From positions 1-31,743 of the IMG/VR virus record IMGVR_UViG_3300044641_001113: a stretch of 31,743 nucleotides of DNA, one strand, 5' to 3'. Numbering within the stretch: position 1 is the stretch's first letter; each line of letters starts with the position of its first letter. Positions 422-3,763 of the stretch are shown piece by piece. This DNA comes from a virus. The position numbers and the translations under genes are program-made. Under the pieces are notes generated by a model, which was not told where the DNA came from, ran no database searches, and was given only the letters and a program-made list of their open reading frames with translations.

Positions 422-922
422 TTATAATACTCCACTTCTGACTCTTGATATAGAATGATTATTGACGAATAAAGTCCCTTCGTTATTGTTAAATCCCAAT
501 ATCTCAAGGATGGAGGTGTAGTTTCTTCTGAGGATTTTGTCATATTCTAAGTAATATTCGATTTGTTTACAAGCATTTAAAACTGTGCTATGGTCTTTGA
601 CAAGTATTCTACCTATCTGAGTGGTTTTATATCCATAGTGAAATCGCATGATATAGCAGAATAGATGTCGTGGGATGGTAAAATCTGCTTTCCGGGATGT
701 TCCCAATACTTCTGATGGGGATGTTTCATACACTTGACATATTTCTCGTAATACCAATTCCCAATCTTCGGATGTTTTTACATACTTGATTTTTGGATTT
801 AGCAACTCGTGTCTAAGTTGTTTTAGTTTTTCCTCATACTGGCGTTGCATTGTTTCATGCTTTAATAGCAATGACTGATAACGCTTTTTTAAATCGTGGT
901 GTTGTTGGTATATTGTTTCCAT
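422..922 (-). CDS. DnaA domain IV-like DNA-binding protein without AAA+ domain
   Basis: A 166-residue protein. Residues 1-42 are a charged, probably coiled-coil helix (QRQYEEKLKQLRHEL). Residues 52-125 match the C-terminal DnaA-box binding domain: a KADFTIPRHLFCYIMR helix followed by the signature VKDHSTVLNACKQIE at about 108-122. The ATPase domain of bacterial DnaA is absent, so it cannot act as an ordinary initiator. By inference it binds the phage origin and recruits the DnaB-type helicase encoded directly upstream, with which its start overlaps by one base (922). The coiled coil may dimerise it. Homology of the domain is clear; the role is inferred. Confidence 0.8.
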   Translation of the reverse strand: METIYQQHHDLKKRYQSLLLKHETMQRQYEEKLKQLRHELLNPKIKYVKTSEDWELVLREICQVYETSPSEVLGTSRKADFTIPRHLFCYIMRFHYGYKTTQIGRILVKDHSTVLNACKQIEYYLEYDKILRRNYTSILEILGFNNNEGTLFVNNHSISRVRSGVL

Positions 923-2154
923 TATCGTTGTTCTTGATATAATGTTCTTGCTGGTGTAAATGTTGTTTTAATCATGCCTACTTCTCCGTGTCTATTCTTT
1001 GCAATTATAAGTTCTGCCTCTTCGATTTCAATATCTGCTCTATCGTAGTAGTTAGGACGGAATGGAAATAAGATTATATCTGCGTCTTGTTCAATACTTC
1101 CGCTCTCTCGTATGTCGGATAGTAATGGTCGCTTATCTGCTCTCTCTTCGCATTTACGCGATAACTGAGCCAATGCTATAACCGTTATCTCTAATTCCTT
1201 TGCTAATACTTTTAAGTTTCGTGATATATCGCTTATCTCTTGTTCTCTATTTTGCTTGTTCCCCTTAATCAATTGTAAATAGTCGATAACCAATAAATTT
1301 AATCCGTGCTTTGCTTTGTGTATTTTAACTTTAGATTTTATGGTCTGAATGTCAACAATAGCCTCGTCATCAATGTGAAACATTACTTCGTCTGTTACAA
1401 TCTTATTTGCAAGGTAGGATATCTCAGATTGATTTAAATTACCGCTCCTTAGTTTGTATTGTGGTATCTCTGCAAGTAATGACATATAGCGTTTTGCAAT
1501 TTGCTCTTTGCTCATCTCCAAAGACAAGAACAAACACTTTGCTCCAAGTTCAGCAGCGTTCCGAACAAATGAAAGTGCAATTGCTGTTTTACCTGAACCG
1601 GGACGACCTGCAATAATTACCATGTCCGATTTATTCCAACCACCTATGACAGAATCCAACTTATGCCAACCAGTAGGTAGACCACTTAAACTTTGTCCTC
1701 GTTCTATTGCGTAGGTTATTTGGTCGAATACTTGACCAGTAACTTTTTGCATTTGCACACTTTCTTTTGCGTGTACTATTTTACTTTCTTCTACATACCG
1801 CTCTAAATCGTTTGTAATGGCGTTTAAATCGCGTTGTAAGTCAAGATTGGATAGTTTGTCTATCAACTCCTTTTTCATTGCTTTATATTGCAATTCTTTG
1901 ATGTTGTGTTCAATCTCTCCATTACCCATTACTTTATTCATTAACAAGCTTACTTCGTAGGCATGTTCTTTTCCTATGTGATTAACGATTTCGTATAAAC
2001 CGAATTTGCTATTTGACAAGTACAATTCTTGCATTGCCATCACAACTTTTTGGTGTACAACTTCTGTAAACCAATTTGCTTTTAATCTTGGTAAATAAAC
2101 AAGGTTCTTATCCCAAAATAAAAGGTTTGATATTATGTGCGATTCTAAATTCAT
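922..2154 (-). CDS. dnaB: DnaB-like replicative helicase
   Basis: A 410-residue protein with the full DnaB layout. A short N-terminal helical domain (1-130) is followed by a RecA-like ATPase: Walker A GRPGSGKT at 183-190, SLEMSKEQIAKR at 211-222, Walker B LLVIDYLQLI near 287-296, LSDIRESGSIEQDADI at 345-360, and IAKNRHGEVG near the end. It should unwind DNA ahead of the phage fork as a hexamer. It sits between the PP-loop gene (overlap at 2154) and the DnaA-domain gene (overlap at 922), in a replication operon. No primase gene is recognisable nearby, so host primase may be used. Confidence 0.95.
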   Translation of the reverse strand: MNLESHIISNLLFWDKNLVYLPRLKANWFTEVVHQKVVMAMQELYLSNSKFGLYEIVNHIGKEHAYEVSLLMNKVMGNGEIEHNIKELQYKAMKKELIDKLSNLDLQRDLNAITNDLERYVEESKIVHAKESVQMQKVTGQVFDQITYAIERGQSLSGLPTGWHKLDSVIGGWNKSDMVIIAGRPGSGKTAIALSFVRNAAELGAKCLFLSLEMSKEQIAKRYMSLLAEIPQYKLRSGNLNQSEISYLANKIVTDEVMFHIDDEAIVDIQTIKSKVKIHKAKHGLNLLVIDYLQLIKGNKQNREQEISDISRNLKVLAKELEITVIALAQLSRKCEERADKRPLLSDIRESGSIEQDADIILFPFRPNYYDRADIEIEEAELIIAKNRHGEVGMIKTTFTPARTLYQEQR

Positions 2155-2894
2155 TAGTCAATATTACAAAAACATTCAAAAGATGGGTCATTATCCCACA
2201 ATCCAATTTGTGAAAGTGCTTTATTTTTTAGTGAGTGATAGTCAATTTCTTTTTTAAATTGATGACCACTTTGTTTTTCGATATCAATCCACCAATCAAA
2301 TAATTCGGGTTTCTCTTTAGCAATAATTGAAAGTTTCCCTTTACCTTTTAAAAAACAACAATCACAATTCCCATAAGGTTCGTTTACTTTTAAATCGAAA
2401 TCTTGTTCTTTCCACCAATCTAATACATCTTTCTTGGTTGTCTTCCATTTAACTAAAGGCAACTCCACATTTTCTTGAACTTTGCCCCATCTTCTCGGTT
2501 CATCATATCTAATACCATTGATTGAAATATAATCGTATACTCCTATTGATTTAAGATATCTGTTTAAAGTATTAATTTTTAGTTCTAATGTGCAAAATCT
2601 AAATTGTTGATTAGGTATTGATGCAGGTCTTTGTTCTAAAAGTTGCTTAAATGGTTGCCCTTGTCTTGATGCAGTTTCATAAGTTACAACTTGAAAAGAT
2701 GCAGGTTTTCTATATTCTAACCATACTATATTAAGATTCCATCGTTTATCACACTCATTTATAAAATCAAGTGTTTGTGTAATCTCTTTGCCAGTGTTTT
2801 GAAATGTAACAATATAATCAGTTAAACCTTCATCTATTAACATTTTTGTCATGTATGCGGAAGTCCTACCTCCACTAAAATTTATTATATTCAT
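2154..2894 (-). CDS. PAPS reductase-like PP-loop protein
   Basis: A 246-residue member of the adenine-nucleotide alpha-hydrolase (PP-loop) superfamily. The PP-loop is SGGRTSAYM at 7-15, followed by FQNTGKE, a CTLELK motif with Cys101, and GIRYDEPRRW at 127-136. A cysteine cluster is at 177-180 (CDCC) and another pair near the C-terminus (Cys241, Cys243). The fold adenylates a substrate or handles activated sulfur. True PAPS reductases have a different C-terminal Cys motif, and the two Cys clusters could bind a metal or an iron-sulfur cluster. Such proteins are frequent in phages, with roles proposed in sulfur metabolism or nucleic-acid modification. Its substrate cannot be told from the sequence. 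Confidence 0.8.
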   Translation of the reverse strand: MNIINFSGGRTSAYMTKMLIDEGLTDYIVTFQNTGKEITQTLDFINECDKRWNLNIVWLEYRKPASFQVVTYETASRQGQPFKQLLEQRPASIPNQQFRFCTLELKINTLNRYLKSIGVYDYISINGIRYDEPRRWGKVQENVELPLVKWKTTKKDVLDWWKEQDFDLKVNEPYGNCDCCFLKGKGKLSIIAKEKPELFDWWIDIEKQSGHQFKKEIDYHSLKNKALSQIGLWDNDPSFECFCNID

Positions 2895-2896
2895 CT

Positions 2897-3454
2897 TTAA
2901 AATTGTTTATAGTTTAAAACTGGTTGTTGTTGTGGTTGATTTTTCTTCCAAGTTATAACGGCTGCTTTCCAATTCTTCATTGGGTTGCGTCCTACTTTCC
3001 ATCCATTTGCTTCGTAGTAGTTGTAAAAACGAGTTGATTCGTCTTGCATACCTTGTTCAATCATGTAAGCCCTAATGTCGTTTTCTGTTGGCTTAATAAA
3101 CTTCTTTACATTATCATTAACACTATCACTTACACTTACACTATCAGCTTTTTTGGGTTTTTCTAAAAAGGCTTGGGTTTTTTGGGTTTCGTTGGCTTTT
3201 GATGGTCTACCACCTTTCTTACCATTAAGTGATTGTTTTTCAATATAGTCGTTCCACCTTTGCAAATCTCTTTTTAAAGATTGCTTGATTGGTTCAAATG
3301 CAATATTAATAATCAAATCCTCGGTGATAGGATTCTCATCGTTCACATAAGCGAATATATGCTTAATTAATTTACCTGCCATTTCATCTGGCAATTGGTT
3401 AAATACTCCACTTTGGTCTGTGTAAAGTATAAATGATTTTTTATTTTCTGCCAT
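2897..3454 (-). CDS. DUF6291-like replication protein (initiator/helicase-loader candidate)
   Basis: A 185-residue protein. Residues 1-70 have the DUF6291-like pattern (FILYTDQSGVFNQLPDEMAGKLIKH). Next comes a basic NGKKGGRPSK stretch at 77-86 and a Ser/Val/Asp linker. The C-terminal block (125-172, FYNYYEANGWKVGRNPMKNW) occurs in many phage replication-initiation and loader proteins. Its place at the head of the PP-loop, helicase and DnaA-domain genes supports a replication role, possibly loading the DnaB-type helicase. Its ATG directly follows the T-tract of a terminator-like hairpin, so its expression may be controlled by RNA structure. Function is inferred. Confidence 0.65.
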   Translation of the reverse strand: MAENKKSFILYTDQSGVFNQLPDEMAGKLIKHIFAYVNDENPITEDLIINIAFEPIKQSLKRDLQRWNDYIEKQSLNGKKGGRPSKANETQKTQAFLEKPKKADSVSVSDSVNDNVKKFIKPTENDIRAYMIEQGMQDESTRFYNYYEANGWKVGRNPMKNWKAAVITWKKNQPQQQPVLNYKQF

Positions 3455-3507
3455 AAAAAAAGCCCATCAGATTTGCGGTAGTAAGAGTACACGCAAACCC
3501 AACGGGC
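3455..3507 (-). promoter_or_regulatory. terminator-like leader hairpin abutting a start codon
   Basis: On the minus strand GCCC (3507-3504) pairs with GGGC (3465-3462) and TTTGCG (3497-3492) with CGCAAA (3477-3472), across a symmetric 6x6 internal loop. GTA/TAC extends the inner stem past one bulged base, leaving a 7-base loop. Seven T residues follow at 3461-3455, then the ATG at 3454. This is either an intrinsic terminator for the upstream genes or an attenuator in the leader of the DUF6291-like gene. Confidence 0.65.
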
Positions 3508-3554
3508 AAATATCTTTTTAACTTTAGGATTCTCTTACAATCCAGTTAACTATA

Positions 3555-3586
3555 CAAATATATTACTTTTCTATTAATCCACCAAA
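3555..3586 (-). promoter_or_regulatory. Bacteroidota-type promoter before the replication genes
   Basis: On the minus strand TTTG (3586-3583) is followed after 20 bases by TATATTTG (3562-3555), a full TAnnTTTG match. Transcription would start near 3548 and give a leader of about 95 bases that carries the 3455-3507 hairpin. The upstream element lies inside the last codons of the preceding gene. Confidence 0.55.
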
Positions 3587-3763
3587 CGTATAAACTGCAA
3601 AACCATTTTTATCATCGGTTGTTATTATAGCACCATGCTTGTGTCTTAAATCATGAACACGAGCCGATAGACGATAGATTCCGTAGCGTTGCCATGCTTC
3701 CATAGGATTTATCTGTAAATGCTTTTGGAAGTGTTCTAATAGAGTTTTATTTTGATTTTTCAT
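3563..3763 (-). CDS. small helix-turn-helix protein (HTH_55-like)
   Basis: About 66 residues if started at ATG 3763, which leaves a short 17-base overlap with the upstream gene; an upstream ATG at 3796 is also possible but overlaps by 50 bases. The text HFQKHLQINPMEAWQRYGIYRLSARVHDLRHKHG followed by a NGFAVYTF beta strand is the winged-helix pattern often found in small phage proteins (helix-turn-helix 55 type). Confidence 0.65.
   Translation of the reverse strand: MKNQNKTLLEHFQKHLQINPMEAWQRYGIYRLSARVHDLRHKHGAIITTDDKNGFAVYTFGGLIEK

Follow-up and report, generated by a model that had tools for sequence, protein, structure and literature searches.

A two-hairpin fold with covarying, complementary loops in the putative leader RNA of a phage replication operon

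We analysed a 31.7-kb IMG/VR virus record (the window), whose main genes lie on the minus strand, and located a two-hairpin element at the entrance of a replication operon (Table 1). The four genes downstream of the element are nearly contiguous, and the upstream genes run on the same strand and end at its promoter box. The first downstream gene belongs to DUF6291, a Pfam family of unknown function; we call it replication-type because of its match to the PHROG primosomal protein and of the annotation "replication protein" in the phages elemoC and Harreka_1. A preliminary description of this DNA had placed a helicase operon behind the start codon. A replication gene does begin there and a helicase is encoded downstream, but the gene at the ATG is DUF6291 and the helicase gene comes third. 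A protein with a DnaA C-terminal DNA-binding domain is encoded directly after the DnaB helicase. The promoter-like site, stem-loop, run of seven T and ATG in the same description all lie on the minus strand. Its hairpin is confirmed but forms only half of a larger object, the other half of which, hairpin P1 with a loop matching that of P2 at 7 of 7 positions, was missing from that account.

Table 1. Features of the element and of the operon behind it, in window coordinates
Feature	Position	Strand	Basis or remark
Candidate -33 element TTTG	3583..3586	-	Sequence; 20 nt 5' of promoter box
Promoter box TATATTTG (Bacteroidota sigma-A consensus TAnnTTTG)	3562-3555	-	Sequence; position kept in relatives
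Predicted +1	G3550	-	4 nt after box, one base 5' of P1; box at -12 to -5
Hairpin P1	3549-3518	-	Fold and covariation; TTAACT/AGTTAA 6 bp, 3-nt bulge 3526-3524, GGATT/AATCC 5 bp
Loop L1 GTAAGAG (RNA GUAAGAG)	3538-3532	-	7-nt loop of P1
A/U-rich P1-P2 linker, 10 nt	3517-3508	-	Sequence
Putative terminator hairpin P2	3507-3462	-	16 bp, bulged T3491, 3 bp; fold and covariation with L1
Loop L2 CTCTTAC (RNA CUCUUAC)	3487-3481	-	7-nt loop of P2, complementary to L1
Terminator U tract (T7/U7)	3461-3455	-	Sequence
Start codon ATG	3454-3452	-	Directly after U tract, 0-nt gap
DUF6291 replication-type gene	2897..3454	-	Pfam PF19808, 2e-23; PHROG primosomal protein; homologues share N-terminus
PAPS-reductase-like gene	2154..2894	-	Downstream in operon
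DnaB-type replicative helicase	922..2154	-	Pfam DnaB_C, 9.8e-88; downstream in operon
DnaA C-terminal-domain protein	422..922	-	Pfam PF08299, 3e-16; downstream in operon

A Flavobacterium psychrophilum start-site map places TAnnTTTG at -12 to -5 (PMC9723704). Among 27 representative upstream regions (<65% alike), the box occupies positions -12 to -5 relative to the element start in almost every case, with T in 27, A in 26, T in 26, one variable position, T in 26, T in 24, T in 24 and G in 23 sequences, and little else upstream is conserved. The alignment shows that the element has its own putative promoter box at a fixed place. The TTTG further upstream, a possible -33 element, is not conserved among these 27 representatives. 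A sigma-70 scan of the window, with a consensus not meant for this phylum, returned 45 sites where 44.1 are expected by chance. The promoter box fits P1 as the 5' end of the RNA, a relation absent from the preliminary description, and the RNA predicted from G3550 to the U tract measures about 95 nt.

The leader (3552-3446) folds to -34.1 kcal/mol; 200 dinucleotide shuffles average -20.3 ± 3.45 kcal/mol, and none of them reaches so low a value (z = -4.0). P1 and P2 are both present in the minimum-energy and centroid folds, and no competing fold was seen in either. L1 and L2 of the window are reverse complements over all seven nucleotides (P = 0.007 when both loops are shuffled). P2 is a putative Rho-independent terminator and has the form of one, a G+C-rich hairpin followed at once by a U tract, with its pairing kept in 53 distinct relatives. 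It is absent from the list returned by a simple terminator scan of the window, supposedly because of its 1-nt bulge. A structure-only descriptor run on the whole window gave a single match, at the P1/P2 site, compared with a mean of 0.4 in five shuffles (0.0 with the promoter box). The start at 3454 is the least accessible (0.27) of 35 starts folded in the window, which are chosen ORF starts rather than proven genes.

Relatives were gathered by a protein scan with the DUF6291 gene, from which the best 80 of 534 were kept; the regions upstream of most of these 80 have the same layout with altered loops. Further contigs came from two DNA patterns that leave the loops unspecified (for the second pattern, among the matches listed). 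A covariance model was built from 15 sequences with the L1-L2 pairing, a pseudoknot, omitted. At E up to 0.1 it matched 65 times, in 53 distinct rows (alignment A3), in 97 loci that we selected from those collected. The structure named here pairs in 97.2% of the cells of these matches (77.0% in shuffles). All 369 cells of the kissing helix formed by L1 and L2 are Watson-Crick in the 53 distinct IMG/VR matches, with no mismatch and no G.U; double changes occur at all seven pairs, and there are 17 loop sequences, one of them gapped. These cells count sequences and not independent events; how many different loops there are is more informative. G.U makes up 20.1% of the P2 cells, and the stems together hold 218 G.U cells versus 0 A.C cells. 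Because A.C is the wobble of the other strand, these counts argue for selection on the transcribed RNA strand and not on DNA or on an antisense RNA. The preliminary description had let its reading depend on conservation of the stem in relatives; the stem is kept, with many compensatory changes. The comparison shows a leader with two predicted hairpins whose loops can pair, and selection on the transcribed strand; a kissing interaction between the P1 and P2 loops in the putative RNA is well supported. Conserved runs of G.U pairs occupy columns 53-57 of A3 in the lower terminator stem (window about 3503-3499 with 3470-3466). They might be a weak spot, a protein site or a constraint from the start-codon side.

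Several other samples delimit this result. In a further 54 sources searched at E up to 1, the model gave 20 matches, three of them weak or cut; the window scores 83.5 bits. The covariation claim rests on A3 rather than on a set of 54 unique sequences (145 places), because that set was selected on loop complementarity, together with energy and P1-like sequence. Among 62 unique matches to the promoter-plus-P1 sequence, 47 have a perfect 7-nt loop match, one of which (loop GTGTGGT) may be a chance match. The remaining 15 comprise two with 6-nt kissing loops (L033, L388), one truncated at the contig end (L369) and 12 that seem unrelated. A strict descriptor requiring at least 6 nt recovered 60 elements among the best 80 of 534 DUF6291 relatives. 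The 20 misses include loci matched by the model (L008, L032, L033, L047, L064), loci with the same sequence as L033 (L034, L036, L038, L039), two on contigs matched as L137 and L194 (L067, L068) and a sequence cut short (L048). An element of the window class is absent from 8 of the 80, all with adequate upstream sequence (L035, L037, L051, L052, L055, L056, L080, L081). In two DUF6291 phages, L055 (2860-3003) and L051, the leader is longer and likewise has a terminator ahead of the ATG; inspection of the fold by eye shows a possible pairing of a terminator bulge, GUGUCA, with the complementary segment UGACAC in a loop of the 5' hairpin. At L047 and L075 the element is directly preceded by another terminator-like hairpin with T7; the L047 element lacks the promoter box.

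Eight regions of named or deposited phages were picked by protein similarity, and the gaps of seven were examined (the fecal fragment L421 was left out). In six isolate loci, five recognised by descriptor and one by eye, a promoter box is accompanied by a terminator with an internal stretch complementary to a segment further upstream. The complementary stretch is 8 nt in Flavobacterium phage lillamy and in tooticki (the same element), 7 nt in elemoC, 7 nt in Olleya phage Harreka_1 and 8 nt in Flavobacterium phage 11b. The sixth, Cellulophaga phage phi19:3 (L418 1386-1487), has 9 complementary nucleotides before its DUF6291 gene, CTCTCACAA upstream and TTGTGAGAG in the terminator loop; the descriptor rejected this locus and the pairing was seen by eye only. 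The Porphyromonas gap holds neither promoter box nor complementary terminator, and no descriptor match with a promoter box was obtained for phages 6H and P12002L. Judging by these two and by the 8 of 80 DUF6291 relatives without it, the element appears dispensable in some phages. Descriptor version 1 missed 11b and L079; version 2, which lets 1-2 more bases separate the stem from the T run, accepts both. Loop shuffling gave P values of 0.0005 (lillamy), 0.016 (elemoC), 0.020 (Harreka_1), 0.0013 (11b) and 0.0011 (L079). Relatives of the lillamy and 11b genes have a promoter-bearing match at 21 of 81 loci, compared with 0 in one shuffle; many of the other 60 are partial query matches or cut short. 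These 21 include a second sequence class, of nine aligned rows, six of them distinct (alignment A4: L510, L509, L511, L512, L513, L516), with the hairpin GTAGCTG...TAAGCTA. Its sequences cannot be aligned with the window class and precede Lin1244-like and other replication-type genes. All cells of its kissing helix are paired, and 4 of the 7 pairs show double changes. In this class the start codon lies 18-47 nt past the beginning of the T run, and in lillamy about 50 nt past it; the second-class distances mark tight abutment to the ATG as a feature of the window clade.

The structure-only descriptor matched 168 times in 302 viral loci (2.47 Mb), 139 times with the promoter box (59 unique), compared with 30 and 2 in one shuffle; these loci were mostly picked by homology or by the P1 pattern, and the figures are not prevalence. 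In 125 host loci (0.93 Mb), namely the genome-contig pattern matches listed and five Bacteroidota pattern loci, there were 22 matches, 1 with the box. Those five stem from the pattern TTTGNNNNGTTAACNGN{12,22}NGTTAAA, found in 2 of 299 and 3 of 395 Bacteroidota genomes (sets that overlap in part), and the covariance model matched none of the five. It also found no match in 10 genomes with 150 candidates scored per genome. blastn of the element against named phages returned one weak match (E 0.1). Rfam 15 has no family that reaches its gathering threshold in the window, none up to E = 5 in 3420-3600, and only tRNAs in ten related loci. A search of open-access literature brought up no description of the element; most subscription papers and all bioRxiv preprints lie outside this scope. 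These searches point to an undescribed fold in a putative phage leader RNA with an attenuator-like terminator, a kind of leader that is itself known.

In all 65 model matches an ORF starts 0-21 nt past the T run on the same strand (0 nt in 40), and the downstream genes are mostly replication-type. Their proteins fall into 17 rough clusters, including DUF6291, small proteins of 64-77 aa, HTH_36/LexA-type and Lin1244_N-type proteins and some without a Pfam match. The 64-77-aa family, of unknown function, often lies between element and replication gene (L062, L064, L066, L069, L136, L137, L141). In L008 an ORF with a T5orf172/MUG113 domain (898-1772), resembling a homing-endonuclease insertion, separates the element from DUF6291. 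From box to U tract, L062 and L093 are 97% identical and L093 and L126 99%, with 41% downstream in both pairs; the window and L002 are 98% identical and L009 and L010 100%, with 45% upstream in both pairs. Near-identical (97-99%) copies thus precede unrelated genes, which suggests that the element serves the operon position rather than one gene.

The reading that we prefer, with somewhat better than even confidence, is a leader RNA that would terminate by default, leaving the replication operon dependent on read-through, and whose terminator hairpin would also hide the start codon. Transcription would start at G3550 and P1 would fold first; the emerging L2 would pair with L1, P2 would close, and most transcripts would stop at U7 as a short two-hairpin RNA. 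Expression of the replication operon would depend entirely on transcripts, initiated either at this promoter or further upstream, that pass P2; in these P2 would cover the ribosome landing site, so that the gene would be held back twice. Release would come when the kissing P1/P2 fold is prevented or undone; candidates are a protein of phage or host, the condition of RNA polymerase and another copy of the RNA. In the window clade the start codon would lie only on read-through RNA, because no nucleotide separates U tract and ATG. We infer a default-off leader because this gap forces read-through and the start is the least accessible of the 35. Tuning of initiation by structure near the start is reported for F. 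johnsoniae (PMC6847099).

The attenuator or RNA switch of the preliminary description survives in part: a promoter of its own, a leader and a terminator precede a replication gene and the stem is conserved, but an alternative antiterminator fold, as in classical attenuators, was found in neither the minimum-energy nor the centroid fold. Since the terminator can form together with the kiss as drawn, the kiss alone does not account for a switch. The linkers, short (8-10 nt in the 53 distinct relatives) and A/U-rich, favour pairing within a single molecule. Loop sequences seem to change more quickly than a purely structural role would require, and this fits a role in trans at least as well. The switch, its signal and the choice between cis and trans action are what we infer from sequence comparison.

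The same locus could specify a small RNA and an mRNA at once, the terminated RNA acting in trans through L1:L2 on nascent or read-through copies, its own or those of a co-infecting relative, with dose setting replication, a mode resembling that of IsrK or of P4 CI RNA. The 17 loop sequences among close relatives, free of mismatch and G.U, behave as a specificity tag would, the start site is occluded, and the layout resembles that of IsrK, a small RNA with a terminator and a read-through mRNA hidden from ribosomes (PMC4825925). The short linkers instead suit pairing within a molecule, and we consider this reading unlikely, if worth keeping in view. More doubtful is a self-counting replication switch, in which the same-strand short RNA would lock itself or another copy and the dose of RNA, and with it of genomes, would set passage of the terminator. 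If this were true, the loops would resemble plasmid incompatibility tags, which would explain their fast change without mismatch and the recurrence of the topology in non-alignable Bacteroidota phage sequences.

We give similarly little credence to an independent small RNA with other host or phage targets, against whose terminator the replication gene is merely packed. The transcription unit is complete, with its own promoter and terminator, hairpins protect both ends, and the promoter-bearing match is single in the window, lillamy and Harreka_1 records; against this, 65 of 65 model matches lie just 5' of a same-strand ORF, mostly replication-type, and the loops vary, so that no conserved target sequence is kept. 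A transcript-primed origin, with the RNA folding on or near the DNA to prime synthesis beside the replication genes, is quite improbable. The element always heads a replication module and for kissing and priming there is a precedent in ColE1 RNA II, but the window lacks a GC-skew switch, the RNA ends at a strong putative terminator, and no conserved A-rich or repeat region was noticed beside the element. An ordinary terminator of the upstream operon, whose same-strand genes do end at the promoter box, touching the next gene by chance is scarcely credible: it is contradicted by the L1-L2 covariation, leaving the perfectly kept, double-changing loop-loop helix and the fixed-distance box before P1 unexplained. 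That covariation rules out a plain promoter plus terminator, and the G.U and A.C counts of the stems rule out a DNA-level palindrome or origin hairpin.

Among known systems, rep mRNA attenuation of the pT181/pIP501 type shares the order of promoter, leader, terminator and replication gene, and needs an antisense RNA from the opposite strand. Such an attenuator was rejected here on the 0 A.C versus 218 G.U cells and on the absence of a plus-strand TAnnTTTG box, the only promoter type considered, in 3301-3700. ColE1 RNA I/RNA II (7-nt loops) and phi29 pRNA are alike in loop-loop kissing and fast-changing loops; RNA I and RNA II come from opposite strands and pRNA serves packaging, and the window has no Rfam match to either. 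Type III toxin-antitoxin loci consist of tandem RNA repeats (pseudoknots), a terminator and a toxin gene; the element, a single non-repeated two-hairpin unit before DUF6291, was rejected as one.

IsrK RNA of the Salmonella prophage Gifsy-1 is likewise phage-borne and small, has its own promoter and terminator, and has a read-through mRNA made translationally inactive by structure; it differs in acting on orf45-anrP and antQ in a gammaproteobacterial prophage, kissing between a 5' hairpin and the terminator loop is not described in the accessible text, and the element has no Rfam match (PMC4825925). In the same source, P4 CI RNA and seqA-seqC premature termination silence phage replication genes through RNA pairing and premature termination, although CI RNA, processed and antisense-like, has two target sequences that lie outside it (PMC4825925). 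In the window, both partners would lie in one two-hairpin RNA and one is the terminator's own loop. The HK022 putRNA is also a two-hairpin phage RNA of about 70 nt near an early promoter; it binds RNA polymerase, suppresses later terminators and, unlike the element, has no terminator of its own, and in the accessible text kissing loops are not described and the word pseudoknot is absent (PMC9378689).

Taken together, our analysis defines a compact, strongly covarying fold at the entrance of a replication operon, absent from Rfam 15 and found in several cultured phages. Two sequence classes that cannot be aligned with each other preserve it, and each shows covariation of its own. To our knowledge, few regulatory RNAs of Bacteroidota phages have been described. 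If our preferred reading is true, the leader would be a gate for phage replication in Bacteroidota hosts, and a terminator loop that serves as partner in a tertiary contact would add an arrangement to those by which RNA controls termination.
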